Origin: Chytridium lagenaria
Lineage: Eukaryota; Chytridiomycota; Chytridiomycetes; Chytridiales; Chytridiaceae
Length of the DNA: 64,000 bases
Reading direction: 5' to 3'
Assembly (NCBI GenBank): GCA_025449115.1
Contig: JAHLKC010000071.1
Span: forward strand, 124,001 to 188,000
Shown here: positions 7,772-63,639 of the stretch, in pieces
Layout of the letters: each line of letters starts with the position of its first letter
Position numbering within the stretch: position 1 is the first letter of the stretch
Position numbers and translations under genes: made by a program
Notes under the pieces: model-generated
Seen by the model: only the letters and a program-made list of their open reading frames with translations
Told to the model about the DNA's origin: nothing
The model's database searches: none

Positions 7772-8742
7772 GTTTTGATGTGACGTTTCCTATGTCTCCT
7801 GCCTCCTTTTCGTATCGTCTTAAACATGTTGTGTGAATGATTGAATATATTTTTTGTGGGTATATTTATTGAACCATCTCTATAAAGATATTTTATTCGT
7901 TACAACCACTGCTATTATTTACTAAAGATGTTTGTTTTTTAAGTAAGTAGTTAAATCATTTTCTGTGATTTGACGTAAGGCTAGAAAGGAAAAGTAGCAA
8001 CACGAAATCTATATTTAACAATATGCCTATCTTTTGCTTCAAATTAGTAATAATTACTTACCACATCTCGTTATCGAAATGGTATCGCGTTTGTTTTAAA
8101 TCGGTTTGGAGGTCAATACATCATTATTTGAGACGTATTGCTGAGATATATCATAATTTCTTATCACACTAAGCTAGCACTAACAGAATTTAATAACAAA
8201 AGTCCACACAAACGTTTTTACATCACAACAAATTACATGAAAAAAAAGTTTACACCAACGACATGGAAAAGAAACCGGCACAGAAGCCCACACCAAACCA
8301 TCAGCGGTTCGACGTTTAAAGTCAGTCGTCGCTCTCGGGAGCATTGCCTACGAAAAAAGAACATGGGAAAAACTGCCTCCCATTATTGGCGCTGCACGAA
8401 TGTCTAATAGATACGCTCACTGCAGCCATTGCAAGGACGATATCTGTTCTAATCGACGTTATGTTTGACAGCGGGATTCGGCGAAAGTCGAGATCAGGAT
8501 TTAAAAAATCGATTTGGACGGTTTTTTTAAGCCCTTTGTTTCCGTGGATGGCTGAGAAGGAACAAAATGAATTCACCTCTCCTTGCTTTATTTCAGGAAG
8601 AATATCTCGAACTCCATTTCCACTTCACCAATCCTCAATTACTTATCATTAAGTCAACATCCCTAATTCCATTTCGTTTCAGTCATGTTTTCTCGTCTTC
8701 CGATCTCTTTTTGCTTTATTAGAATGTATGAAGGAAACACCT
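7772..8742. other. Intergenic, no gene seen
   Basis: 3' flank of the oxidoreductase followed by AT-rich DNA. The frames of 80-100 codons near 8140-8650 on both strands have no recognisable motif. Confidence 0.45.
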
Positions 8743-9078
8743 AATCCCACTTATTTCTGTCATGCTTTCCTTCATCTTGCCAATAGTTTGAGGATTAATA
8801 CCAAAAAACAGTTGCTACGCTTATGGACTCTTCACTATGATACTACGGAAAACGGCCACTCTGGCTCTTCTTGAACGTTTCCTCTGCAAACTATATAATA
8901 AATATACATGGTCGTTAAAAAATCAGGGGACGATCTAATTTCTTTCCAGAATGACGCCTTTTTTTTATTGAAGGTTCATTTATAAGAGACCGTGACAATA
9001 AACTACGAGAGTTGCGGTTTTTACTAATATGATGATTGAAAGAGAGGCACCATTTGACCTAATCTGATCAAAGAACGA

Positions 9079-9876
9079 CTACTTCCTAGGGGGTTTCTTA
9101 ATGGGTCCAGGTTCGAGGTCCACATCAACCCAGTATGGGTACCAATGCTGGTTTCCGTTCTTCGTGTCACAAGTCAAGAGGTAAGGCTGAGCACCATTCC
9201 CAGGCCAACCAGCAGAGTCAAGGCAAAGCTGACCTTGTCCCCAACTGTCTGTAGCATGAGCATTTCGGTACATGTAGACGCCACTACCAAAAAAAAAAAA
9301 GAGGAAAATGGATGAGTATATGTTCGTTGGAGAGAAACGTGCAAAAGATAGTCTCACTTTCCGATATGCATGGGGTACCACTGAGTTCCCCATCCGTATG
9401 AGCTGCCAGAGTAGCATGGGACGATGACGACTTTACGGTCGATGGGGCTTACGACGCCATAGCAGTTTGCTTTGATTCAAAGAGTAACAGTAAGAAACAA
9501 CAAAAAAATGATGCAGACTGCTGGAGAGTAATCAACTTACAAGAGTTGGGAATGCGCCAACGCTCATTATTGTTATCGGTCCTAGCGAAATCGATCTTGT
9601 TCCAACCGGCATCCTGCCACAACTGAACCCTTTTACTGAGAACAGGGTCAGCAGGGACACCCCATGTTTGAATGGTATAAAAATATAGACTCACTTGAAC
9701 TCCAAGGAGTAGGATCTGTCGTTGTTGGTGAAGAGGCCACCCATGGAGAGGTGCTCAACGTAGAGGCGGCGCTCCAGCGTATGATGGGCCTCTGTGGCGT
9801 TGTTGGCTGTTGGGGCAGCAGCACCTGAGCCCGCGAGGCTGGCAGCTATGGCAGCTATGAAGAGGTTTATGATCAT
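9079..9876 (-). CDS. Small secreted beta-trefoil/ricin-B-like lectin, copy 1
   Basis: Predicted secreted carbohydrate-binding protein of about 180 residues. I use ATG 9876: the TATA box at 9941-9948 leaves no room for ATG 9912, and 9876 opens a classic signal peptide (M-I-I-N-L-F-I-A-A-I-A-A-S, then an Ala-rich end). Four exons: 9876-9695, 9636-9541, 9469-9358 and 9283-9079. Mature motifs suggest beta-trefoil repeats: Q-L-W-Q-D-A-G-W-N-K-I, N-N-E-R-W-R-I, W-G-Q-G-Q-L-C-L-D and the QxW-type N-G-N-Q-H-W-Y-P-Y-W. Cysteines suggest disulphides. Family assignment is from motif shape only and is tentative; the signal peptide and intact splicing are clear. No frameshift was seen. Confidence 0.65.
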
Positions 9877-9940
9877 GGTGTTGTTTGTAATTATGAGGTG
9901 AAACAGTGACAAAGTAAACGAGGGTAATAGAGTGGGTGCT

Positions 9941-9948
9941 TTATATAC
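9941..9948 (-). promoter_or_regulatory. TATA box of lectin copy 1
   Basis: GGTATATAAAGC on the minus strand, conserved at the same place in copy 2. It lies about 70 bases before the chosen ATG 9876. Confidence 0.55.
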
Positions 9949-10387
9949 CTATCAATACTTATTAATTATTATTTGTTTGGAAATAAGGGTCAAGCCATGA
10001 ATCAAGCCTAAATCAAGGCACGAATTACGGCGGTATCAGGCATGCAGATATAAACTATAATTAATTATGGTAAATAACTATTTAAAGATCTTTTTGTCTT
10101 TTTGTTATATGCATTTCTACCTTTACTTCATGAGTTTCTTTATTTACATTAATATTATTATTTATAAAAAGTGTGTAACGAAAACTGGAACAACCTCAGG
10201 GAATACTTGGTTTTCCCTTGACTTTACCATATGACGCTATTTAAAGTTGGTACTTTTTACTATATACAGTATTTCGTGGTCTAGAGAGTCGTGGGTAGGA
10301 CTTTTTTTTACTCTTAGTTTTGTTATGCATCGATCATCTTTTTTTTTTTTTTTTTTTTTGTTCAGCCAAACAATAAATATTATCATG

Positions 10388-11330
10388 TCAATAATAAAAA
10401 ATGTAGACAGTAAAAGATGCCCAGATGTCTGGAAAGAGATGCCGTCGTAAGTCCCTATCTGCCTTGTTTTTGCCTTGCTCTGATCCGACCGTCCGACGCA
10501 TGTATTTTTTTTCCCCTCTACGCAAAAACTTTATTTTTGACCGTTTTACGATTTCATGAACAACCTGAGAGATGAGCGAAGTTGAGCTGTATCCCTTGGT
10601 AGGTATATACTGCAACGTTGTTTGCGTTGTCTGTATGCCATTGAACGCATTCCCCAGATAGTTCTCCGCCGAGATGGTACAGCCGATAGCAATGGTAGCT
10701 AACTCGAGGTTTGCGCTTCCGGCCCTTCTTTCAGAGCGCTCACGCAATGGGGACACCATGACCAAGACCAAAAATGATATTGAGAGCAAAATCCTGCTCC
10801 TGTGAGAGAACTATCACTAACAATGCCAAAGTGGCTTGTTGCGAACCATTCCTCTTCTCGGATGAAGTGGATGCCCGGCCACTCGAGAATAATATCGGCG
10901 AACCACAAGATATCATCAGCCTTTGCTGCAGGGGTAAACTGTTCGTGATTTTTTCCTGTCTTATCAACCTGTAAGTGTTGCTGAGGTACACCCTTCCTTG
11001 TGGAAGGACCCGGCACACCCACGTTAAATTTCCTGCAATTGACGAAATCTTGCTTTTCGACAGCTTTTGTTTCTTTGATGCTTCTACTAGAAAGTTGCTC
11101 ATTTTTCGCATTTTCTCAACAGTAATCGTCACCGTCATAGCATTTGTGTCAATTCGGAAGCCCAGGATCTTCAACGACGGCCCTATCAGGATTTCCTTCG
11201 TCTTTATTTCATAGCCCAAGAAATTAAGGATTTTGTGGAAGAATAAGATGGTGAGGGTGATCAGGTCTGGGTGAGTGACGGCAAAAAAAATTATCGCTGT
11301 GATGGAAGCAATCAATAAAAAACTGTTTTA
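10388..11330 (-). pseudogene. DIRS-type retrotransposon RT/RNase H fragment, decayed
   Basis: Minus-strand frames from 11315 down to 10388 give, in order, the end of a reverse transcriptase (I-L-G-F-R-I-D-T-N-A-M-T-V-T-I then E-K-M-R-K-M, typical of DIRS/Ngaro RTs) and a linker with I-A-G-N-L-T-W-V. An RNase H-like part follows (I-V-S-D-S-S-L-T-G-A-G-F and N-L-E-L-A-T-I-A-I). At least two frame changes (near 11000 and 10760) break it, and neither the RT active site nor a tyrosine recombinase is present. It sits between the two lectin copies, partly overlapping the 3' flank of duplication unit 1. Confidence 0.7.
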
Positions 11331-11731
11331 ATCCCCAGCACACCATGTCGCCAAACAAAGCAGCATGGGAAACCAGAATCCATCATTTCAAACATTGTTG
11401 CGTGGTCAATGAGGAATTCATTTTGTGAAGTTTTCCCTTTGGCCAAGTTGGATTAATCCAACTTATTTCAGTCATGGTTTCCTTCATCTTGCCAACAGGT
11501 TGGGGATAAGCACCAAAAAATTAGTTGCTACTCTTATGGACTCTTCCCTATGAGACTACAGAAATCGGTCACTCTGGCTCTTCTTGAACGTTTCTTTTCT
11601 GAATATGTACTATATAGATAAAATGTAAAGAAACAGGGGACGATCTAATTTTTTTTTCGAGAATGACGCCTTAACTTTATTGAAGGTCCATTAAAAGAGA
11701 CCGTGACAAAAAACTACGAGAGGTGCGATTT

Positions 11732-12577
11732 TTAATTATATAACGATTGAAAGAGAGGCACCTTTTGACATAATCCGATCAAAGAACGACTAATTCTTAC
11801 GGGGCCTCCTAATGGGTCCCGGCTCGAGGCCCACATCAGCCAGTACGGGTACCAGTGCTGGTTCCCGTTGTTCCTGTCACAAGGCCAGAGGTGAGGCTGA
11901 GCACCGTTCCAAGGCCAACCAGCAGAGTCAAGGCAAAGCTGACCTTGTCCCCAACTGTCTGTAGCATGAGCATTTCGGTACATGTAGACGTCACTACAAA
12001 AAAAAAAGAGGAAAATGGATGAGTATGTTCGTTGGAGACAAACGCGTAAAAGAAAGACTCACTTTCCGATAGGCATGGGGTACCACTGAGTTCCCCATCC
12101 GTACGAGCCACCAGAGTAGCATGGGACGATGACGACTTTACGGTCGTTGGGGTTTACGACGCCATAGCAGTTTGCTTTGATTCAAAAAGTAATGGTAAGA
12201 AACAACAAAAAACGATGACTGGTTGAGAGTAATCAACTTACAAGAGTTAGGAATGCGCCAACGCTCATTATTATAATCGGTCCTAGCGAAGTCGATCTTG
12301 TTCCAACCGGCATCCTGCCACAACTGAACCCTTCCACTGAGAACAGGGTCATTAAGGACACCCCATGCATGAAAGGTATGAAAATAAAGACTCACTTGAA
12401 CTCCATGGAGAAGGATCTGTCGCTGTTGGTGAAGAGGCCACCCATGGAGAGGTGCTCAACGTAGAGGCGGCGCTCCAGCGTATGATGGGCCTCTGTGGCG
12501 TTGTTGGCTGTTGGGGCAGCGGCACCGGAGCCCACGATGCTGGCAGCGATGGCAGCTATGAAGAGGTTTATGATCAT
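11732..12577 (-). CDS. Small secreted ricin-B-like lectin, copy 2, altered C-terminus
   Basis: Paralogue of the gene at 9079-9876, with the same signal peptide, four-exon layout and TATA box (12643-12650). Most residues are identical. Differences include I-V for L-A in the signal region and S-D-R-S-F-S-M for N-D-R-S-Y-S-L. After the last Q-H-W-Y-P-Y-W motif one base is missing relative to copy 1 (near 11840). The frame as written therefore runs on to 11732, whereas the ancestral frame would stop at 11790-11792. The trefoil core is intact, so the product could still fold. A sequencing error at this point is possible. Confidence 0.6.
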
Positions 12578-12642
12578 GGTGTTATTTGTTATTATGAGGT
12601 GAAACAGTGACAAAGTACGAGGGTATTAGAGGCAGTGGGTGC

Positions 12643-12650
12643 TTTATATA
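12643..12650 (-). promoter_or_regulatory. TATA box of lectin copy 2
   Basis: TATATAAA on the minus strand in the same context as in copy 1. Confidence 0.5.
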
Positions 12651-13609
12651 CCTATCAATAATAGTTTTATTATTTTAAATGTTTATTAATTATTTTTATT
12701 TGTGTGGAAATAAGGGTCAAGCCATGAATCAAGGTACGTATTATATAACAGGTAGATCATATCAGCTAGGCAGGGTAGAGGAAAATTAGTTCGGTGTAAA
12801 TTATAAAAATATTCTCCTGCAGACATAACTATAACCATGCCTTTCTGTCTTTCCGTGTAATATTGCATATCATGTAATAAACATTTATTATTTATTTATT
12901 AATACATTAATTATTGTGAAAACTGTGTAACTAAAACTGGGACAACAACTCAGGTAATACTTGATCTTCCCTTAAACCTAACCATGTGACGCTATTTAAA
13001 GTTGGTACTACTTCCTATATATAGTATTTCGTGATACATATCCCATAATAGTCTATTAATAGTGATATGGACACAGCCCCTTTGCCCCGCGCTTGCTTCC
13101 AGCCGTCAAGGGCTAAGTTTGAGGTCCAAATAATTAAAAGAAAAGACATGAAGTAAAAATCATTATAAATATTTAATATAATATATAAATATGATGAAAT
13201 AAGGTTTCCTAAAAAAAAAACACCCAGTCATCCTGTTTACTTGAGCTGTTGTTATATTTGCATTTTGCATGTCTATTATTCATTCATTTTAACGTAGGTA
13301 AATGCTACATAAATAATCCATCTCTGGTTTATATAATGCACGAAATAAAAAGAAGTCTGAGAACTGCAGTGGGACGCTGGATGGGAGTCACATTGACGTT
13401 ACCTGAAGAATTGCAGAGCCCTCGGTGGAATCGCTAACACGACCTGTCGCAGAACGCCAGGAGTTTGATCTTATATTTCAGGTTGCTTATCTGGGTTGGG
13501 AGACATGCAAACAAAAATATAACACGATTTTTCTTATTGCTCAATAGCCCAACGCGCCAATACCAACAGAACAAGATTTCTTATTGCTCAATGGCCTAGG
13601 CGTTGGGCT

Positions 13610-13840
13610 GAGTCCAACCCGAGCTGCACGGGTGAAATGCTGGTTCCCGTTGATCCTATCACAAGGCCAGACGTGCAGCTGAGCACCGCTCCAGGGTTAT
13701 TGAGCAGAGTCAAGATAAAGCAAGAGCATATCGGGACATTGGGGTAGGCGCGTGCACCAAGACTCACTTTCCGATAGGCAAGGGTACCATTGACTTCCCC
13801 ATCCGTGCCATGTCTTAACGATGAAAGGTAACAATCGCCG
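13610..13840 (-). pseudogene. Third lectin copy, relic
   Basis: Short blocks match the 3' half of the two lectin genes on the minus strand: the region around the QxW motif (13640-13700), the intron/exon edge (13755-13790) and the W-Y-P-M-P-I-G part. Many indels mean no reading frame survives. Confidence 0.6.
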
Positions 13841-14460
13841 TAGTGTCAGAGTTATTCATAGCAATCAAGTATTTGCATACATAAATATTTACTTACATTA
13901 AAATGTAACAATATCAGTGGCAATTTATTTGTAGTTTATTATTATTTCAAAATTGTCGTATTTCAACCCTTCACCATACCCTTTATTGCGTTCAAAGGTG
14001 CATCTTTTTCTGCAACTATCAGTGTCACGACAGTCAGAGTAAGACTGAGCACTATGCACGCAGCACGCGCAATAGGGATATGCCCTGGATTCAAATATTA
14101 TTGCCTTTTTAAGGTAAAGCAGGGGTTAACTGAATGTCATACAAACATTGATAAGGTTTGCTTACTAATAAACATGGAAAGACAAGAGTCTTTAGTCGTG
14201 CGTGGTTGTGGATGAGACTTTTTTTTTTACTTTTGTTATGCATCGATCGTCTTTTTTTTTTTCTTTTTCAGCCAAGCATATTATTGTGATCTTGTCAATA
14301 ACAAAATGTAGACAGTAACAAGTGATAGGATGTCCAGACGTCTGGAAAAACATGCCGTCGTAAGTCCCTATCTGCCTTGTTTTTGCCTTGTTCTGGTCCG
14401 ACGCATTCGTTTTTTTCCTCTATCTACGCAAAAACTTTATTTTTTAAAACTGTTCTTTGT

Positions 14461-18300: not shown

Positions 18301-19170
18301 AACCCCATAACATTGCCTGAACCACGATATCGCCTGTCCAAGCAAACGTCGGAAAAACCCCCATCACTCCCTGACCCTAACGAACCCGCAAACACCATAT
18401 CGCCAATCCAAGCCAACGTCGTAAAACAAAACCCATAACACCCCCTAGCTCAACGCAACCGCAAACCAACGCAGCAAACATCGTAAAGTCACCCACACAC
18501 ACATCCCCTCCAAAAAAAAAGGCACACAAACCTCGACCCCAACTCCCACTGCACGCCCACCCCAGGCCTCCCATTCGCCACACACCACCACCGCGCCGAA
18601 AACTCCAAAAACTCCAAATCCTCCATCTCCTCCTTCCGCAACCTCGTGTCGGACAGGAGCGTCAATGTTTCTTTTAACACGGCCGAGACGTCGGTGTACG
18701 CTGAGAGACGGTCTTGGAAGGAGTAGCGGAAGATGTCGTCGGCGTAGCCTGGGAGAGCGTTTATCGCGGCGGTGGCTGGGGAGGGTTAGAGATTGGGGTG
18801 AGAGAGGGGGGTGAGAGGGATGGGGGTGAGAGGGATGGGAGAGAGGGGAAGGAATGGGGAGTGGTTTGAGAGGGTATGCGGTTCGAGAGGGGAAGGAATG
18901 GGGAGTGGTTTGAGAGGGTATGGGGTTCGAGAGGGTGAGAAATGGGGAATGACGAGAAATGAAGGTATCCAAGAGGATAAAGCATGGTGATTGACAGAAA
19001 ACGATGGTTTATGGAGATGAAGGAACGCCAAACCCCAGCGAGAACAGGCAGCCAAAAATAAAACAAAGGGAACGAGCATACTCACTAGGCTCCATACGAA
19101 CAAGCACATCCATGAACCGATCATTCAGGACAGCGATGCGTTCAGAAGTGGTGGGATAGTCTCCTTCCAT
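15301..19170 (-). CDS. DUF885 family putative metallopeptidase, paralogue A (intact motif)
   Basis: About ten exons, read from 19170 down. Exon 1 encodes M-E-G-D-Y-P-T-T-S-E-R, followed by exons at about 18781-18527 (D-D-I-F-R-Y-S-F-Q-D-R), 18050-17885 (E-G-P-I-V-N-Y-E-L-Y-L), 17445-17161, 17126-16835 (T-A-E-E-V-H-E-M-G-L) and 16566-16410. The next two give N-A-L-T-M-H-E joined to A-V-P-G-H-H-H-Q-I-S-L-A-Q-E, the family's HE...GHH metal-binding-like motif. F-A-E-G-W-G-L-Y-C-E-G-L-G follows, then 15930-15626 with the hallmark C-P-G-Q-A-C-A-Y-K-I-G-E-L-K-I. The final exon, 15445-15301, is short and Thr-rich. DUF885 proteins are widespread in bacteria and some fungi. A metallopeptidase role is inferred from the motif; the substrate is unknown. 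Several introns carry private minisatellites. One exon between about 18500 and 18050 is not resolved. Confidence 0.75.
17453..17600. repeat. Intronic minisatellite (about 48 bp, three copies)
   Basis: Three near-identical units starting near 17456, 17504 and 17553, G-rich on the plus strand, inside an intron of the DUF885 paralogue A gene. Confidence 0.75.
18150..18490. repeat. Intronic minisatellite (about 60-72 bp, five or six degenerate copies)
   Basis: Units begin with CCATAACATTGC-like sequence and carry ACGATATCG(C/T) and (A/C)AAGCAAA blocks. They lie within an intron, or an unresolved exon/intron stretch, of the DUF885 paralogue A gene. Confidence 0.65.
18780..18935. repeat. Intronic minisatellite (GAGAGGG-rich, about 45 bp)
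   Basis: Repeated GGGGAAGGAATGGGGAG + TGGTTTGAGAGGGTATG blocks within the first intron of the DUF885 paralogue A gene. Confidence 0.65.
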
Positions 19171-19229
19171 GATGTTAAATTTTGGAGTCACGGAATCGGA
19201 TGTTAATGGGAACCAAGCGTGGTACCCGT

Positions 19230-21065
19230 GTTTTTTTTGGGTGACAAGATATACAACAGGATGGAGATGATGTGAACGGTATCGCACATTGCGGGACGAG
19301 ATGGATGGGATGGCTGTAATGTGCGGTGATGAGTGTATCGAACAGGGTGTTTTTTTTTGGGTGACGGAACAATGAATGTGAGGATGGAGGTGATGTGAAC
19401 GGTGTCGCACAGTGCGGGACGAGATGGATGGGATGGCTGTAATGTGCGGTGATGAGTGTATCAAATAGGGTGTTTTTTTTTGGGTGACGGAACAATGAAT
19501 GTGAGGATGGAGATGATGTGAATGGTGTCGCACATTGCGGGACGAGATGGATGAGTTTGACTTTGTGTGAGGTAGAGCGCGTATCGAACAGGGTGTTTTT
19601 ATTTGGGTGACGGAACAATGAATGTGAGGATGGAGATGATGTGAACGGTATCGCACATCGCGGGACGAATGGATGGGATGGCTGTAATGTGCGGTGATGA
19701 GTGTATCGAACAGGGTGTTTTTTTTTGGGTGACGGAACAATGAATGTGAGGATGCAGATGATGTGAACGGTATCGCACATCGCGGGACGAGATGGATGGG
19801 TTTGACTTTGTGTGAGGTAGAGCGCGTATCGAACAGGGTGTTTTTTTTTTGGGTGACGGGACAATGAATGTGAGGATGGAGATGATGTGAACGGTATCGC
19901 ACATCGCGGGACGAATGGATGGGATGGCTGTAATGTGCGGTGATGAGTGTATCGAACAGGGTGTTTTTTTTTGGGTGACGGAACAATGAATGTGAGGATG
20001 CAGATGATGTGAACGGTATCGCACATCGCGGGACGAGATGGATGGGTTTGACTTTGTGTGAGGTAGAGCGCGTATCGAACAGGGTGTTTTTTTTTTTGGG
20101 TGACGGGACAATGAATGTGAGGATGGAGATGATGTGAACGGTATCGCACATCGCGGGACGAGATGGATGAGTTTGACTTTGTGTGAGGTAGAGCGCATAT
20201 CGAACAGGGTGTTTTTTTTTGGGTGACGGGACAATGAATGTGAGGATGGAGATGATGTGAACGGTGTCGCAAATTGCAGATCCAGATGGATGGGATGGCT
20301 GTAATGTGCGGTGATAAGCGCGTATCGAACAGGGTGTTTTGTTTGGGTGACGGGACAATGAATGTGAGGATGGAGATGATGTGAACGGTATCGCACATCG
20401 CGGGACGAATGGATGGGATGGCTGTAATGTGCGGTGATGAGTGTATCGAATAGGGTGTTTTTTTTTGGGGTGACGGAACAATGAATGTGAGGTTGGAGGT
20501 GATGTGAACGGTATCGCACATTGCGGGACGAGATGGATGGGATGGCTGTGATGTGCGGTGATGAGTGTATCGAACAGGGTGTTTTTTTTTGGGTGACGGG
20601 ACAATGAATGTGAGGATGGAGATGATGTGAACGGTGTCGCACATTGCGGGACGAGATGGATGGGATGGCTGTGATGTGCGGTGATGAGTGTATCGAACAG
20701 GGTGTTTTTTTTTGGGTGACGGGATAACAGGATGGAGATGATGTGAACGGTGTCGCACATTGCGGGACGTGATGGATGGGATGGCTGGAATGTACGGTGA
20801 TGAGTGTATCGAATAGGGTGTTTTTTTTTGGGTGCCGGGACCATGAATGTGAGGATGGAGATGATGTGAACGGTGTCGCACATTGCGGGACGTGATGGAT
20901 GGGATGGCTGTAATGTGCGGTGATGAGTGTATCGAATAGGGTGTTTTTTTTTGGGTGCCGGGACAATGAATGTGAGGATGGAGATGATGTGAACGATATC
21001 GCACATTGCGGGACGAGATGGATGAGTTTGACTTTGTGTGAGGTAGAGCGCGTATCAAACAGGTG
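19230..21065. repeat. 15-copy tandem array of about 123 bp upstream of the DUF885 gene
   Basis: Units start at the GGGTGAC/GGGTGCC block near 19239, 19357, 19481, 19604, 19727, 19850, 19972, 20096, 20220, 20345, 20468, 20590, 20712, 20829 and 20951. Each holds a T run, then GGGTGACGG, AATGAATGTGAGGATGG, GATGATGTGAACGGT and ATCGCACAT. Two end types alternate irregularly: A (GGGATGGCTGTAATGTGCGG) and B (GAGTTTGACTTTGTGTGAGG), in the order A A B A B A B B A A A A A A B. The array ends about 60 bases upstream of the start codon at 19170. Long minus-strand frames across it are by-products of a unit with few stops. Confidence 0.95.
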
Positions 21066-21379
21066 TAGTCTTTGGTTACGTATGTAAACTGTAAAATCCC
21101 TTTAAATACCTTTTTTTTTTTATTCTTTTATTTTTTTTATGCCAGTGATTAAAAAGAATGGGGGCTCGACCTATGTAAAAAACAGCGTGTTGACGGTAAA
21201 AGTGGTGGTGGTGGATACACTTGCAAAAAGAAACGCAAAAAGAACAAAATCAACAAAATGAAAAAAAAACAACAACATGAAACGTGAAATGCACAAAAAG
21301 GGAACAAGGGAAAAAAATAAAGAAACCGACGGAACATGTAAATACAAAAAGAAAATGACATCAAAAATACAACGATAGT
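21066..21379. other. Spacer between array and membrane-protein gene
   Basis: T-rich then A-rich low-complexity DNA. No gene seen. Probable 3' flank of the minus-strand gene ending at 21380. Confidence 0.45.
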
Positions 21380-24608: not shown

Positions 24609-27600
24609 ATGCCCTCTCTCAAAAAGAAGGGCTCAAAACCCTCACCCCCATCCATATCCCCGCGTTCCCTCCCATCCCCTCCCACCATCGACACCTTCTA
24701 CCTCACATGCATCCTCATCCGCTGTCTAACCGCCTACCTCCCCGGCTTCATACATCCCGACGAATACTTTCAATCATCAGAACCCATGGCCGGTATAACC
24801 CATCCCCCCACATTCTAACAATCCTAACAAAAACCAGGCTTTGCGTTCGATGCCAAGATGAACATCCCGTGGGAATGGAAAAACACTGCCCCAGGACCTA
24901 GTCGCCATTTCCTTGTTCCGTAAGCAAAGCACACACTTCTTTTTTAACCTATTATCAGATACATCACCCTTGGCATCCCGTTCCAACTTCTTCGTCTCAT
25001 CAACCCACATCCATCCGGTCTCGTCCTCTTTATTGTTCAACGTACCGTCATGCTCGGTCTATCGTTTTGCATCGGTGAGTCCTTTGAATAGACTTTTTTG
25101 TTGGTTTTTTTTTGGTTTGTTTTCTTTTTTGTTTTCTTCATTTGTTGTGTTTAGTTGTGTTTTGTTGTTTAATGTGAAATAGATTTGGTATTGTGGGATT
25201 TGAAAAGGGAGTACCCGGATTTGGGGATGACGCATATACACCTTTTCGCGTCATCGACGGTGACTTTGGCGTTTATTGTGAGGCCCTTTTCCAATTCGTG
25301 GTTAGCGATTTTACTCGCAACATGTATCTGGGCCCTCATTAAAATGGTAAGTTTGCCATCCATTCCATACTTTCTCATTGAGCCCATCATAAATTATCTC
25401 ATACCATACCTATTTCCCCCATTTCCTAATCCCCTTATCACAAAACTACAAAAAAAAAAAAAACCCACTTTTGACAACATCAGCGCCACTACGTCACCCT
25501 CTTATCCAGTTTCGCTCTCGGCCTCCTCTCCGGTCTCACCCTCCTCACCCGCACCGACGCCCTCTTCTTCCTCATCCCCCTCGGCAACGCCTTCCTCTAC
25601 CTCTCCTTCATCGACCTCTCCACCAGTCCCCTCTACCACCCCTTCTCCGCGTCCTCACCTGTCTCCTTGGCGTCCTCCTCTCCGCCTCCCTCATCCTCGT
25701 CACCGACTCTCTCTTTTACGGGGACTGGGTCAACGTTTACCTCAAATAACATGACGTATAATCTGGAATAATGGGAATTTGAGGTTGCATGGGTTGCATC
25801 CCCGGTGGCTCCATTTAGTGAATTTGGGAGTGTTGTTTGGAGGCGTGCCGGGGGTCGGGGTTTGGCCTTATTTGAGGAGGGTTGGGAGACGTCGTGTCGT
25901 GGTGAACGTGGTAGATAAGAAGGATCAAAGCGAAAAGGCTGAGACGACTTTGAAACAAACGCCTCTTCAACCTATCCACTTGGATCATGAAGCCGTGAAC
26001 GTGGCAAACAAGAAGGATCAAAGCGAAAAGGCCGAGACTACTTTGAAACAAACGCCTCTTCAACCTATCCACTTGGATCATGAAGCTGTGAACGTGGCAG
26101 ACAAGAAGGATCAAAGCGAAAAGGCCGAGACTACTTTGAAACAAACGCCTCTTCAACCTATTCACTTGGATCATGAAGCCGTGAACGTGGCAAACAAGAA
26201 GGATCAAAGCGAAAAAGGCCGAGACTACTTTGAAACAAACGCCTCTTCAACCTATTCACTTGGATCATGAAGCCGTGAACGTGGCAGACAAGAATGATCA
26301 AGCGAAAAGGCCGAGACTACTTTGAAACAAACGCCTCTTCAACCTATTCACTTGGATCATGAAGCCGTGAACGTGGCAGACAAGAAGGATCAAAGCGAAA
26401 AGGCCGAGACTACTTTGAAACAAACGCCTCTTCAACCTATCCACTTGGATCATGAAGCCGTGAACGTGGCAAACAAGAAGGATCAATGCGAAAAGGCCGA
26501 GACTACTTTAAAACAAACGCCTCTTCAACCTATCCACTTGGATCATGAAGCCGTGGCGAGGCTTAAAATATCTTTATTGATGTGTGGTAAGTGTATCCCC
26601 ACTCCTTTTTTTTTTTGGCATTGACTTTTAACGCGGTGTTTTTTTTGGTAAAGTTAACCTTGCTACCGTGTTTTTTGGGGTTACCCTTTTATCGGCTGCG
26701 CCACATCAGGAACCACGGTTTCTCGTCCCGCTTGTTGTCCCTGTGGTGTGTTTAGGTGCTATGGGGGTGAAATTGATGACAGCGGGGAATCGGAAACGAT
26801 TTTGGGTAAGGCCGTTACTGATATACTTGCCTTCCCCTTTATCCTCTTTTTTTTTTTTTTTTTTTTGTTTGGTATCTTGTCGTTTGTTTTTTTTGTGTGG
26901 TGCATTGAATCTTGACGTTTAGCTTTCTATAAACCGCACCCATTTCTTCTTTGTTTATGAAATCTCACCGTTTTTTTTTCGTGGTGCAGTAAACATTACC
27001 GTTTTTTTGCGTCTTGATTCAAACCTCCCCAGGTTTTCGTGCTTCATTGAAACCTCACCGTTTTTTTTTCGTGTTGCATTAAATCTTGCCTTTTTTTTTC
27101 CTCGTGTTGCATTAAACCTTACCGTTGTTTTTTTTTTCGTGTTTCATGGAACGTCATCGTTTTTTTCCTTCTTTATTAAACCTCACCTTCATATCTTATC
27201 TCACTATGTTTTCGTGTTTCATTTAACCCCCCCCATTCGTTTCGTTCATCCAACCCTCCCCCATTTTTTTCGTTCATCCAACCCTCCCCCCCCATTCTTT
27301 TCGTTCATCCAACCCTCCCCCATTTTTTCGTTCATCCAACCTCCCCATTCTTTCGTTCATCCAACCCTCCCCCATTTTTCCTCTATTAATTTCCTCCCCT
27401 TTTTTGTCTCTAGACCCTCTGGCTCCTCTTCAACGCTCTCACGACCCTCTTTTTCGGAGCCATGCATCAATCTGGATTGGTGGCAGTTTTGTTTGGCATG
27501 CAGGCTAGAGGTGACCTTGGAGAGGCGTTTGGAAGATGCGGGGAGGTGAAAACGGGTGTGGTAGAGTGTTTGTGGGGGGGGATGAGGGGGGGAGATGGAG

Positions 27601-58079: not shown

Positions 58080-58318
58080 TGTGAGATTATTGAATAATCT
58101 CACCGAGAGGCATAAACGCGTCATATTATATATAGTTGTTGTGCTTAATTGATGCTTCCCCAATTCCCGTTCCTCTCTTTCCTTCCGCGGTTTTTACATA
58201 GTTTTTCCCGCGCATATGATGAAAGGGGTTTTTAGAGAAGGAACGGCGGTCACTGCGGTTACGCGCGTGGTCGAGATGTTGCTGTTTATTATCCCCTGTG
58301 CTTGTACTTAGTGTACTT
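58080..58318 (+). mobile_element. Older LTR, left part (interrupted)
   Basis: Begins TGTGAGATTATTG. About 240 bp match, in reverse complement, the end of the LTR at 59020-59265, with clear divergence. A TATA-like TTATATATAG lies near 58130. The alignment resumes at 63142 on the far side of the younger element. Confidence 0.8.
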
Positions 58319-59265
58319 TGTGAAGTTCTCTCTATGGCCCCCTCTGCTAAGCCCCGGCATACAGAGGTAGAGAACCACATAATAGGTGACAAGACTAGCG
58401 TCTAGGAGGTACTCCTAGATCAAGAGTCAAGCCCTATTCTGCCTTTAGTGACAGCGGGGATTTAAGTTGCTGTGGTTCTGCTCTAAAACTAATCTATGAA
58501 AGAAAGGAAGGAAAAAGGAAGGAAAAAGGTACTCAGGCGGAGATCCAACGCGCCAGAGTGGAAGGGTCATCAAGGAGGGAGTCCATCCCGCTCCTAGTAG
58601 TGTACAAGGCCTCGTAATCGCCGCAATAAGCCGTTTTAACATGTTCTCATCTGATCTCTTCTACCTAAGGCCCTGCTCATGCCGCACTCCCACTCACAGG
58701 CAACTAGATAGCCAGTCATCGCAATCGAAAAGAACAGAGGTGGTTATACTACCCAAACCTTCGAAGGAATCATGCCACAGAGGCGTCTATCCAGGGCTCA
58801 GGCCTTCTTAGACTCAAGTGTCTTGGTTCAAGGTGTAGTCTCCCCCAGCGGCGTAATCCCCGAGCGCCCGCAGGTACAACTAAATAACACAATATTGAAT
58901 AACAGAAGAATGAAGAAAGCATGGCCCAAGGGCAGCCATGCCTGGATGTATGGGTGGGATCAATCCAGGACTACAGAGGTGCACGTAAATCTATTCAACT
59001 TTCTACAAATAATAAAACAATACATAAAGGGGAATCAAATAACAACAACAGGCATCTCGACCAACGTGGTAGCATGTCATAAGTTGGCATACCACGTCGA
59101 CCGCCCTTCCTTCTATAAAAACCTCTCTCGTATCTATGGGGAAAAACTATGAAAAACCCCGAGAGGGAAAAGAATGGAACGGGAACAACAAAATAAGAAT
59201 AAGGCACGACGTCTATATAAGCGACGCATTCATGCCTCTCGGTGAGGTTATCCAATAATCTCACA
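58319..59265 (-). repeat. Left LTR (3' LTR in the minus orientation)
   Basis: 947 bp, TG...CA ends. On the minus strand a TATA-like TTATATAG lies near 59211-59218. It contains, antisense to the element, an open frame of 126 codons (58772-59152) identical in the other LTR. Confidence 0.85.
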
Positions 59266-62186
59266 TGCACCCACACTTGAGAACAAGGTCCCTCGTGAGT
59301 TTTTACGATATAAATATATATATTCTTATATAGACTAGTATAGTGTAGTGAATACAAAGTCTTCTAAAGCTAAGGGTACATCATCATCTTAGCTTTTCCA
59401 TGTCTTCACGTGGAGAGACAAGTTCTATTGGATTCATATCTTGTGAGTCCTATTATGGTCAATGTCATCATGCACATTAACTCTATTGTCAAGTTCTACC
59501 TCTGGGTCTGGAACTATGACTTCTTCTGACGCTGTGCTGGACAACTCTTGGAAGCCAGCATTATCACTTGCGTCTGTATAGCGAGTTTCTACTTTCTCGC
59601 GTTTAGGTATGCCGTGCTTATCAACATGGGCTAATCGTTAAAGAATCTTTAACATTTGTCTTGGCCACGCCATTCCAATAATCTCTAACTATTGCGGAAG
59701 GAATCTCGTTCTAACAACCAAGTGTTGTGGTATGGGCCAAAGTTGCAGCAGCAACTTCTTCTTGAGTCTGTATCAGGACTATGTATTAACAGAGCTACTT
59801 ATAGCAACTATTACATTAATCAAGTAAGTAAACAAAATATATATAACGCGATAATTCACGTAATTATCATGATAAGTCACGTAATTATTATTTCAACACA
59901 AAAGTATCAAAACTTCTGCTCAAAATATAACAACTATATACTTAGTACAACAAATAGGCTCACTCCTAGATCCTATCTTCACGTAACGCACTTTACGCTT
60001 GAAAGAAAACTCTCAAACTTGAACGAATTTTTGTGATAAATCATCTTTAAACTACTTCAAGAAGTTTAACTGACGTGTATACATATTCAAACTTATTCTA
60101 CTCCACATCTCTGCTCATTGCGCGTTAAGCATCGACGTTAGTAGTCAAGTTTGTTTATGGTCACTTCTGCTATCTTGTAAGACATTCTAATGTTATTAAC
60201 AACCAATATCAAGGCATCATTAACACGAAACATAATCACTATGCTTACACATTATCTGCAGATAACGATAAGTTGACTCAGATTCTCAAACGAGAATATG
60301 ACTCTCCAACAGTTCACCCACCTCTTTAAAGCAAACACACACATATCCACATAAGGGTGGGAGGGTGAGGAAGTACGCGCAAAGCGTCTCCAACAAAATG
60401 AAAAATGGCAAAGCCATAATATATTGACATGCACGCATTGCAAGATACATGAGACATAAAGCTTTGTTGATGGTGTTAATACGTCAACCATAATTGCAAC
60501 ATTGACCAACACTGACCAGCAGTGTAAGTACAATAAAGTCATTAGAGGAAGCAGTTCCTTAACCAACGGAATCATTCTTCTGTTAAACGGCCCCGGTTCA
60601 AGTTGAGCTCCATAATCAAAGCATATTTATAATAAAAATGCAGATGCGCTATCATTTCCGTGACAAAAATAATATCAAGTTATATGATCGTCAAAGTTTC
60701 AATAAGAAGCTTTATATTCTACCATTAGCTAGTGCATATTATGAAAGAAGGCAACGGTGGCACCTTCCTTAAGCCATATACCATGAGGCCATGATTTGCT
60801 TTGTTATATTCAAAGTCACAAAAGTGACCCGTTTAAACATTGAGCAAGGGTTGCTCTGCGCATAAGTAAGACAGATTGCATACATAATTATCGGCAGGTA
60901 TAATTGTGTTATTATATTAGCAACAACTAATTGGATGTGGTGACCCGAAACATTTGTTTGTTAAGAAATTAACAAATTTGTCAAGCAAAAATGCTGAAGT
61001 CCAATGCCGACGTTTTTCAAAACGTTATAAGTCTGGAACGGTGCGTCGCCATAGCGAGACCTATATAAAAATGATGCCCTCATTGAGGGCTACGTGTATA
61101 GAAATTTCAAGTAAAAATCGCGATAAAAATTAACGAAGTAGTAAAACGGCAATTTCGTCGTCAATAATGAATTGTCAAAAAAACCCAAGACTTTCCAAAG
61201 TATTTCTACATCTTCGAATTATTTGTAATCTGGTATAAATGACTTCATTGAAGTCGAAATCCTATTTCGAAGATTTGACAAAATTCTTTCTTCATAAAAG
61301 TCGAAACGCTGTTTTAAAACTTATTTCAAAAGACTTTCCGGCTCTTCTGGACGATAGCTATCGGAATCACTAAGGTTTTACTGCTGGGGAGCAGCGGTCG
61401 TCAAGATCACAGGCATAAAGATCATAACCTCTGGACCCTGGGGATTGTTGTTAACATTACCAATTTTGTGTAACCTGTTTTGGTAAAAGTGAAAGTCCAG
61501 GACTCATACACAGTAAATAAAGACTGCCTCCTTAACGATTACAAGACCAATAGGGGCGCAAACGTTACCATATTTTACCACCGTTTGCGTAGTACTACGC
61601 ACTACATGTAAAGTTTCATAATTATAGTAATAAAAATGAGTGCGAAACGCGCAATCGAAAAAGCGTCGAAGTGATAAAAGCATATAGATCTCACTTAAAA
61701 GTAAGATCTAATACACTAAAAGGCTCCTAAAAGCCATAAAAAACGCTGAAAGCGTTCTAGGGTACTGGATGGTAGTCCAGTGTTGACAAAGGTGGCGGGG
61801 TGCCATAAAGACACCCAGTGCCAGGCCTCCATGACAGAGGCCCTTAATGTGCTTAGGTCGAAACCCTCGCATGTCAACAAGATCCCGACTACCCTGCCAG
61901 CAGGGGTCGTCAATGGATCAAAGTGAGTCTAGCTTGCAACAACATCCCTCATGCCTCCTAGGAGGCCTTCACTGGGTGTCGTTACACAAGTTTTGACAAG
62001 GGGTGGTTGCAAACAAATGTATAACTCACAACACAAAAACCGCGATCTCTCGACGACGGATACGGTAGAGACGTGGGACGATAGCGCAAACGACGCCCCG
62101 ACTCGTAGCTTTCATATGATATAAAGATCAATAAAATATGATTAGTAGAAGAAACCGAAACCACCATATTTGGTTGGGCCCCCATC
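59266..62186. other. Interior of the LTR element, no intact gene
   Basis: AT-rich, with many short frames. The minus strand at about 59650-59455 reads as an uninterrupted acidic stretch (K-H-G-I-P-K-R-E-K-V-E-T-R and E-E-V-I-V-P-D-P-E) ending at a stop. 59695-59640 gives I-V-R-D-Y-W-N-G-V-A-K-T-N-V in another frame. These look like decayed coding remnants, but no domain is recognisable. Confidence 0.5.
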
Positions 62187-63137
62187 TGTGAAGTTCTCTC
62201 TATGGCCCCCTCTGCTAAGCCCCGGCATACAGAGGTAGAGAACCACATAATAGGTGACAAGACTAGCGTCTAGGAGGTACTCCTAGATCAAGAGTCAAGC
62301 CCTATTCTGCCTTTAGTGACAGCGGGGATTTAAGTTGCTGTGGTTCTGCTCTAAAACTAATCTAAATGAAAGAAAGGAAGGAAAAAGGAAGGAAAAAGGT
62401 ACTCAGGCGGAGATCCAACGCGCCAGAGTGGAAGGGTCATCAAGGAGGGAGTCCATCCCGCTCCTAGTAGTGTACAAGGCCTCGTAATCGCCGCAATAAG
62501 CCGTTTTAACATGTTCTCATCTGATCTCTTCTACCTAAGGCCCTGCTCATGCCGCACTCCCACTCACAGGCAACTAGATAGCCAGTCATCGCAATCAGAA
62601 AAGAACAGAGGTGGTTATACTACCCAAACCTTCGAAGGAATCATGCCACAGAGGCGTCTATCCAGGGCTCAGGCCTTCTTAGACTCAAGTGTCTTGGTTC
62701 AAGGTGTAGTCTCCCCCAGCGGCGTAATCCCCGAGCGCCCGCAGGTACAACTAAATAACACAATATTGAATAACAGAAGAATGAAGAAAGCATGGCCCAA
62801 GGGCAGCCATGCCTGGATGTATGGGTGGGATCAATCCAGGACTACAGAGGTGCACGTAAATCTATTCAACTTTCTACAAATAATAAAACAATACATAAAG
62901 GGGAATCAAATAACAACAACAGGCATCTCGACCAACGTGGTAGCATGTCATAAGTTGGCATACCACGTCGACCGCCCTTCCTTCTATAAAAACCTCTCTC
63001 GTATCTATGGGGAAAAACTATGAAAAACCCCGAGAGGGAAAAGAATGGAACGGGAACAACAAAATAAGAATAATGGCACGACGTCTATATAAGCGACGCA
63101 TTCATGCCTCTTGGTGAGGTTATCTTATAATCTCACA
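62187..63137 (-). repeat. Right LTR (5' LTR in the minus orientation)
   Basis: 951 bp. Matches the left LTR with +2 bases near 62365, +1 near 62597 and +1 near 63074, plus about three substitutions close to the TCACA end. Confidence 0.85.
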
Positions 63138-63141
63138 ACTT

Positions 63142-63410
63142 AGTTGTGTGTCTTGTAATTATTATAAAGGAGAAGAAAGTTGAATAGATTTACGCACTAT
63201 AGTCCTGGCCTGATCACTCTTTAAACCAGGCCCAGCCCCTGAGTCGTTCCTTTCTGTTTCAATATTCTATATTGTTGTTATGAGTTTTGCCAGCGGGCGC
63301 TCAGGTTATTGCGTCGCCGGGGGAGACTACACCTTGAACCATGAGTCTAAGAAGGCTTGAGCCCTGGATAGACGCCTCTGTGGCATGATTCCTTCGAAGG
63401 TTTGGGTAGT
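63142..63410 (+). mobile_element. Older LTR, right part
   Basis: Continues the reverse-complement match of the LTR exactly where 58318 left off. AGAAAGTTGAATAGATTTACG near 63174 and the block at 63293-63405 match the reverse complement of about 58765-59000. Similarity ends abruptly near 63410. Confidence 0.75.
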
Positions 63411-63639
63411 GTGATCTTCTCTTGACCCATCCCTCCCTACCTAGCTTCGACTAGGGGGTAGGGGAGAAGAGTAAAGGAGTGGCTCCAGCAGAGCAAGTCC
63501 ACAGAGCACCTAAAGGACGGATGTACTCCGCCGTCTAAGTGATGTTAGTTGTTGTTTGGCTGTGTGTGGTAGTTTTCGCGAGTTCTATTAAATAAAAGGG
63601 AGATGGGAACGGTTTTAGTATCTTCATTATCGACTTACC
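63411..63639. other. Probable remainder of the older element's LTR/leader
   Basis: No similarity to the younger LTR. Contains a CTAGCTTCGACTAGGGGG hairpin-like stretch. No gene seen. Confidence 0.35.

Follow-up and report, generated by a model that had tools for sequence, protein, structure and literature searches.

A gene-less LTR retrotransposon nested in an older LTR of its own family in Chytridium lagenaria, and candidate Ty3/Gypsy-type partners with an ExoIII/AP-endonuclease-like domain in Pol

The genome of the chytrid Chytridium lagenaria (assembly GCA_025449115.1; 41.9 Mb, 356 contigs) contains, within the 64,000-bp window analysed here (contig C71, positions 124001-188000), a gene-less long terminal repeat (LTR) retrotransposon at 58319-63137 that lies inside an older, inverted LTR of its own family. 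It is best explained as a non-autonomous copy whose enzymes would have been supplied in trans by a Gypsy lineage resident in the same genome, with a predicted exonuclease III (ExoIII)/apurinic/apyrimidinic (AP) endonuclease domain within Pol; taken jointly, with the family assignment of the copy and the domain order of the partners included, this explanation is considered highly probable. Held with distinctly less assurance, as the view favoured on balance, is the proposal that the partners are very large Ty3/Gypsy-type elements of a lineage which is old, diversified and so far undescribed, with their own ExoIII/AP endonuclease as a fixed and selected Pol domain and with swarms of gene-less derivatives living off them. 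The nesting is ordinary, textbook behaviour, an insertion by a non-autonomous family resembling the large retrotransposon derivatives (LARDs) into its own kind, and both the nest and the gene-less family are of known kinds; it is the partner lineage that departs from the textbook.

The nest consists of the following parts, in coordinates of the window:

58080-58318, plus strand: older, diverged LTR of the same family, left part (its 5' end, TGTGAGATTATT...), aligned to the LTR reverse complement; score alone 197, shuffle maximum 54
58315-58318, no strand: left target-site duplication ACTT, exact 4-bp match
58319-59265, minus strand: 3' LTR of the young element, 947 bp
62187-63137, minus strand: 5' LTR of the young element, 951 bp
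63138-63141, no strand: right target-site duplication ACTT, exact 4-bp match
63142-63422, plus strand: older LTR, right part, to LTR position ~530; score alone 303, shuffle maximum 57

The young element totals 4819 bp on the minus strand. Its LTRs, each starting with TGTGA and ending with TCACA (TG...CA), align over their whole length in 951 columns, 4 of them gaps in 3 indel runs, with 3 of the 947 aligned bases substituted, and the ACTT copies lie exactly at the repeat edges; the original prediction, made from the letters of the DNA alone, had described direct repeats of 947 and 951 bp bounding a 4.8-kb element between two ACTT copies, and this description holds. With the element and one ACTT removed, 58080-58318 and 63142-63422 form an unbroken alignment to positions 1-530 of the LTR reverse complement at 88.1% identity (471 aligned bases, 579 columns), with a score of 478 where 200 single-base shuffles reached 77 at most, and with many indels, some of them around the junction. 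The predicted rejoining of the flanks into one inverted, diverged LTR is thereby upheld as to continuity, but homology extends to about 63422 instead of 63410 and covers only the first ~530 of ~950 bp, the remainder of the old LTR not being found at this locus. The outer LTR is clearly older than the element inserted into it, and the alignments support insertion of a young copy into an older inverted LTR of its own family, as had been claimed. The word young calls for caution, since all 3 substitutions between the window LTRs are also seen as variants in other LTRs of the family, one of them as a very common variant and an adjacent pair also in L024, L032, L037 and L038; the substitutions may stem from gene conversion and not from a clock, and no age is derived from them.

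The orientation of the element, its membership of a multi-copy non-autonomous family and the nuclease domain of its partners had all escaped the original prediction. The interior is annotated below, with L060, a coding partner on contig C120, as the reference for the stretches held in common:

59266-62186, minus strand: interior, 2921 bp, 39% GC, no long reading frame; at least 18 full-length copies at 92-100%, the window's included
59266-59286, minus strand: conserved stretch preceding the 3' LTR, read as TTGTTCTCAAGTGTGGGTGCA in the direction of the element; a possible polypurine-tract region
59266-59738, minus strand: 3' end of the interior, common to ExoIII-encoding elements; L060 91% over 481 columns
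60273-60321, minus strand: remnant collinear with L060:5537-5588; 78.8% over 52 columns, E 1e-4
60648-60795, minus strand: remnant collinear with L060:8031-8184, upstream of its reverse transcriptase (RT); 71.6% over 155 columns, E 5e-10
62172-62184, minus strand: primer-binding site (PBS) TGGGGGCCCAACC, two bases (GA) from the 5' LTR; complement of tRNA-Pro(AGG)

Both the PBS and the coding partners place the element on the minus strand, so that 58319-59265 is the 3' LTR and 62187-63137 the 5' LTR, with the old LTR in plus-strand orientation. The PBS pairs without mismatch with the final 13 bases of tRNA-Pro once CCA is appended, and the match extends no further; a pattern for the T-arm and acceptor stem, written from this primer prediction, matches the genome at 16 places (11 exactly) and its reversed control at none, and ARAGORN calls tRNA-Pro(AGG) at both loci checked. 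Allowing up to 3 mismatches, a 22-mer spanning the LTR end and the PBS has 34 matches in the genome, 28 of them exact, against 0 for the control. A plus-strand reading was rejected, the sequence after the plus-strand LTR having no TGG start and the 8 linked coding partners reading the opposite way. At the other end of the interior, the 59266-59286 region is the same, or nearly so, in the non-autonomous copies and in the coding partners C120, C138, C184 and C185, the conserved GTGTGGGTGCA before the 3' LTR being purine only in part.

Searches of the assembly returned at least 44 matches to the LTR (40 of 363 candidates scored) and at least 44 to the interior (40 of 48 candidates scored). Among the 44 interior matches listed, 18 are the full-length copies; in five the match is confined to 59266-61075 and the LTRs belong to a second subfamily (84-87%), in 11 it is confined to the last 379-473 bp, and the remaining 10 are fragments of other kinds. 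ATG-initiated frames of the 18 full interiors reach 120 aa at most; short frames recur at one place (67-98 aa from base 2 in 12 of the 18; ~80 aa antisense in several) as is expected of interiors this alike, and four frames of the window element (67, 107 and 114 aa, and 170 aa antisense in the LTR) have no significant Pfam match; an interior lacking gag and pol had been predicted, and is borne out. As the 18 copies share a non-coding 2.9-kb interior at 92-100%, they were amplified as a non-coding unit. Exact 4-bp target duplications flank 9 of 12 complete non-array copies with both flanks (the misses being L016, L023 and L025), and the LTR pairs of the family are 0-10 substitutions apart (14 pairs compared). 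As part of the joint explanation, 58319-63137 is thus assigned with good confidence to one recent copy of a LARD-like non-autonomous LTR retrotransposon family. LARDs are defined by the absence of coding capacity, a conserved interior and a total length over 4 kb; the present family resembles them in being LTR-bounded, in its conserved non-coding interior, in its total of 4.8 kb and its many copies, and in being presumably moved in trans, and differs in that its host genome also contains an identified coding partner lineage of the same LTR family, with a common PBS junction and a common 3' end, the 2.9-kb interior standing at the small end of the class. The family is a natural map of the cis sequences that have been kept: the LTRs, the PBS end and the last 473 bp.

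Several copies and loci of the family are of interest in their own right. L021 (C33:167680-170639) has a full window-type interior between second-subfamily LTRs (86-87%), one of them split by ~200 bp, and in it LTR subfamilies and interiors are reshuffled. Two tandem arrays, one of four LTRs and three interiors at C6:299533-312169 and one of three LTRs and two interiors at C50:188355-~196880, are each flanked as a whole by one 4-bp duplication (TAGG and AAGC, respectively), and represent either a single insertion later expanded or an inserted multimer. L022 (C161) and L023 (C240) agree in their left flank and in a ~727-bp deletion of the 5' LTR but not in their right flank, a likeness due either to duplication or to recombination; L024 and L025 likewise have one flank in common. 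In L016, L024, L025 and L026, one LTR of each pair carries 36-68 indel runs and few substitutions, and these indel-rich LTRs look like uncorrected long-read errors in the assembly. A second self-nest lies at C33:990-2290 (L074), where a solo LTR with AATA on both sides sits inside an inverted older LTR, a third LTR piece adjoining; inverted LTR pieces near LTRs at C3:24094-25372, C23:141935-143721, C54:91186-92590 and C202:20190-22114 are possibly further inverted self-nests. If inverted nests are common, the reason may simply be that recombination removes direct ones.

The last 473 bp of the interior recur, among the interior matches listed, at 11 other places at 83-93% identity, and in 8 of these (C138, C184, C185, C120, C229, C13, C14 and C54) a nuclease domain lies 2.54-2.61 kb upstream on the same strand. 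In L060, an LTR 98.5% identical to that of the window adjoins this 3' end, which starts about where the pol frame ends, and RVT_1, RT_RNaseH, Exo_endo_phos, rve_3 and Chromo follow in order on one strand, in broken frames (Pfam Chromo: 2.9e-7, 30.7 bits, cut-off 25.1). On the minus strand of C13, an exact LTR-PBS junction at 438948 is followed by RT at 429177, the nuclease at 426522, integrase at 425630 and the 3' end at 423446, giving an interior of 15.5 kb with both ends present and an element of ~17 kb in total, an estimate from this one copy; C324 is spaced like C13, with 8.9 kb between RT and the leader match. A Pfam scan of the partner pieces upstream of RT recognised no gag or protease. 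As three stretches of the window interior are collinear with L060, that interior is probably what internal deletion and divergence have left of such an element. The original prediction had held that the copy must have been mobilised by proteins of another copy and had proposed a genome search for pol-encoding relatives: such relatives were found, in C120 with broken frames and in C13 with stops in the nuclease frame, and their common LTR family, LTR-PBS junction and 3' end support mobilisation in trans by the partner lineage, which is suggested by these matches and not shown.

The position of the nuclease was surveyed from 150 RT matches, 126 nuclease matches and 42 of the 150 listed integrase matches, namely those on relevant contigs. 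The 126 nuclease fragments merge into 75 loci. Within 8 kb upstream, 37 of these have an RT on the same strand, at 0.96-2.10 kb in 32 cases and at 5.1-6.8 kb in 5; within 3 kb downstream, 32 have an integrase; and 18 have both. The nuclease-integrase gap is 555-751 bp in every one of the 32 loci in which it was defined. In C198, a frame open from 50264 to 42786 (2573 aa) encodes RT (YIDD), RNase H (ribonuclease H), Exo_endo_phos, H2C2 and rve, with the D, D and E motifs of the integrase present and, by eye, a C-terminal chromodomain-like stretch in the same frame. A single open frame, of 1604 aa, likewise spans RT, nuclease and integrase in C95; RT and nuclease share one in C324 and C50, and nuclease and integrase in C76, C185, C234 and C238. 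The partners are therefore, with the confidence attached to the explanation as a whole, very probably of Ty3/Gypsy type with a chromodomain, their predicted Pol carrying an ExoIII/AP-endonuclease domain between RNase H and integrase.

By sequence comparison the nuclease resembles ExoIII and APE1. Scores of 124.3 and 120.7 bits were obtained with TIGR00633, the NCBIfam exodeoxyribonuclease III model (cut-off 99.05), and of 123.0 and 121.9 bits with the narrower TIGR00195, under its cut-off of 182.55. Among solved structures, matches were obtained to the ExoIII type at 4e-26, to APE1 at ~1e-20, to the endonuclease of the long interspersed nuclear element (LINE) LINE-1 at only 0.012, and to the LTX entry, presumably an L1 endonuclease variant, at 0.0055. 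The six motifs QET, NVYxPN, GD(F/L/M)N, YTW, WR(V/I)DY and (S/T)DH, which we take to be the catalytic motifs, are all present in 8 of 8 aligned copies, the stretch before QET being out of frame in C229. Ratios of nonsynonymous to synonymous substitution rates (dN/dS) were saturated at silent sites in 21 of 28 pairs; among the seven measurable pairs, values of 0.04-0.06 at dS 0.81-0.88 (3 pairs) and 0.02 at dS 0.09 (1 pair) show purifying selection on the predicted nuclease domain. Residues 60-560 of the nuclease-integrase piece were also compared with a protein database, which yielded just three matches. One is an RT of group II intron type that begins with an Exo_endo_phos domain, one carries the name exodeoxyribonuclease III, and one is a Gypsy-type Pol in which the alignment covers the integrase and no Exo_endo_phos is seen. 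These matches are too few to show how widespread the nuclease-bearing lineage is, and a scan of viral contigs found no match. A nuclease-RT fusion of a separate kind is P0001 (947 aa), in which an N-terminal Exo_endo_phos is joined to the RVT_N, RVT_1 and GIIM domains of a group II intron-type reverse transcriptase.

A number of observations weigh against this picture of the partners. No nuclease domain was found beside three of the 11 places sharing the 3' end, namely C91 (at a contig end), C51 and C144; nor was one found beside C40, a twelfth and weaker match to the 3' end. C120, the one partner found with a near-identical LTR, has no 5' LTR or PBS in the 14.7 kb examined, and its frames are broken. 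The LTR comparison for C13 covers the 5' LTR, which has an identity of only 76% to that of the window and of 80% to the second subfamily, and stops interrupt the nuclease frame of this copy. In the remaining three measurable pairs, all very close, dN/dS reaches 0.42-0.57; in C229, which is among the three sequences compared, part of the start is out of frame, and the youngest copies may be decaying or contain sequencing errors.

Among other explanations, an unlikely one is that the window element was mobilised by the resident nuclease-free Gypsy lineage, the shared 3' end being incidental. Such a lineage is present: of 26 RT matches with a surveyed integrase within 6 kb, 18 have the nuclease between (C37 counted twice) and 8 have none, with a gap of 1.16-1.22 kb, and it looks like an ordinary second Gypsy lineage. 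On C91, moreover, an RT match lies ~1 kb from an LTR of the window family, but on the opposite strand, and it is with the nuclease lineage, to which the LTR comparison was confined, that the cis signals (LTR, PBS junction and last 473 bp) agree. That the window element is a decayed, formerly autonomous copy and not a member of a non-autonomous family is very unlikely: the three stretches collinear with a coding partner have been kept in it, yet it is one of 18 copies with a common non-coding interior and few substitutions between paired LTRs, of which L021 carries LTRs of the other subfamily, and most of the complete copies scored have their own target duplication, even though L022/L023 and L024/L025 share one flank each. 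Equally improbable is an origin of the nest by recombination or assembly error in place of insertion, which the indel-rich LTRs (4 of the 14 pairs) might suggest, since the duplication at the edges is exact, the old LTR is continuous once the element is removed, and a second case of the same kind exists on C33. Least probable of all, and rejected, is a derivation of the partner nuclease from the remains of LINEs nested in an LTR element, for although Exo_endo_phos is the usual LINE endonuclease, nested repeats are present in the genome, RT lies downstream within 8 kb (the LINE order) in 7 of the 75 nuclease loci, and C80, C114, C291 and C319 show an identical 2428-bp gap, as if copies of one unit, the nuclease is coded in one frame with RT and integrase (in C198 and C95, and partially in six others), stands at a constant distance from integrase and is ExoIII/APE-like in sequence.

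With mobilisation of a non-autonomous copy by nuclease-bearing partners retained as the preferred explanation, these partners may be compared with known systems. They are like Ty3/Gypsy chromoviruses (Metaviridae type) in their order of RT, RNase H, H2C2 integrase and chromodomain, their tRNA priming and their LTRs, a placement made by domains and not by RT phylogeny, and are unlike them in the ExoIII/AP-endonuclease between RNase H and integrase, in the ~9 kb separating the PBS or leader from RT (C13, C324) and in a total of ~17 kb (C13). The LINE endonuclease domain precedes RT. The partner domain belongs to the same superfamily (Pfam Exo_endo_phos) as the AP-endonuclease-like domain of LINEs, but is distant from it in sequence and, unlike the LINE order, lies downstream of RT and RNase H.

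Extra enzyme domains within pol have been described, in the passages drawn on here, for the charophyte Gypsy element KnitGypsy-Dnmt3, whose methyltransferase is kept by purifying selection (PMC5890265), and for the oomycete Gypsy elements Archon and Chronos, with an extra RNase H (aRNH) and chromodomains (PMC5348765); the present elements share this trait but differ in the enzyme, here a nuclease of DNA-repair type. In the corresponding passage on Kuafuorterviruses, Exo_endo_phos is sporadic only (PMC11673190), whereas here it has a fixed position in many subfamilies. A passage on fungal complex elements mentions unspecified extra domains ascribed to multiple insertions (PMC3248453). Exo_endo_phos or AP endonuclease is assigned to non-LTR elements in passages of PMC3391268, PMC10799480, PMC3441728 and PMC4112212, appears as a table row (Exo_endo_phos_2) in PMC8605555 and in a motif list in PMC6058741, both without architecture, and PMC2864245 is likewise among the sources with passages that name the domain only in LINEs, sporadically or without architecture. 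Searches of the open-access literature, covering long result lists in part and lying outside Repbase and most subscription journals, returned no ExoIII/AP-endonuclease as a fixed domain of Gypsy pol, and the absence of a report of the nuclease-bearing lineage is a weak negative.

In the mechanism proposed, a parental copy would have been transcribed and its RNA packaged, primed by tRNA-Pro and reverse-transcribed, and a staggered cut of 4 bp would have let the complementary DNA (cDNA) integrate, in the opposite orientation, into an older LTR of the family. The enzymes would have come in trans from the resident large Ty3/Gypsy-type lineage (~17 kb, judging by C13), whose LTR family, LTR-PBS junction and 3' end are also those of the copy. 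The kinship of the nuclease with ExoIII and APE1 suggests work on the cDNA, in which it would incise or trim damaged or uneven molecules before integration, acting at AP sites, blocked 3' ends or remnants of the RNA primer; target priming of the LINE kind is argued against by the placement of the nuclease before an integrase with D, D and E motifs and by the fixed length of the target duplications. LTR retrotransposons rely on integrase for joining their cDNA to the chromosome, and in some retroviruses uracil and AP sites are handled by dUTPase or captured host enzymes. If the proposal is true, the lineage would consist of retroelements equipped with a DNA-repair enzyme of their own for their cDNA; were the nuclease to act there, it would constitute a retrotransposon analogue of the retroviral handling of uracil and AP sites, and a directly testable case of a mobile element with its own repair.

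In the assembly at large, a chitin synthase model gives 43 matches (best 2.6e-197), which makes a fungal genome likely, the model also giving matches in 4 of 14 prokaryote controls. Three open reading frames of the window have no Pfam match. Elsewhere in the window, a 123-bp tandem repeat of ~2 kb at 19132-21148 overlaps minus-strand open frames of up to 665 aa; 8742-14402 holds long direct repeats ~2.7 kb apart (84-93%) with further partial copies, a locally duplicated unit; and a 93-bp tandem repeat occupies 25835-26648.

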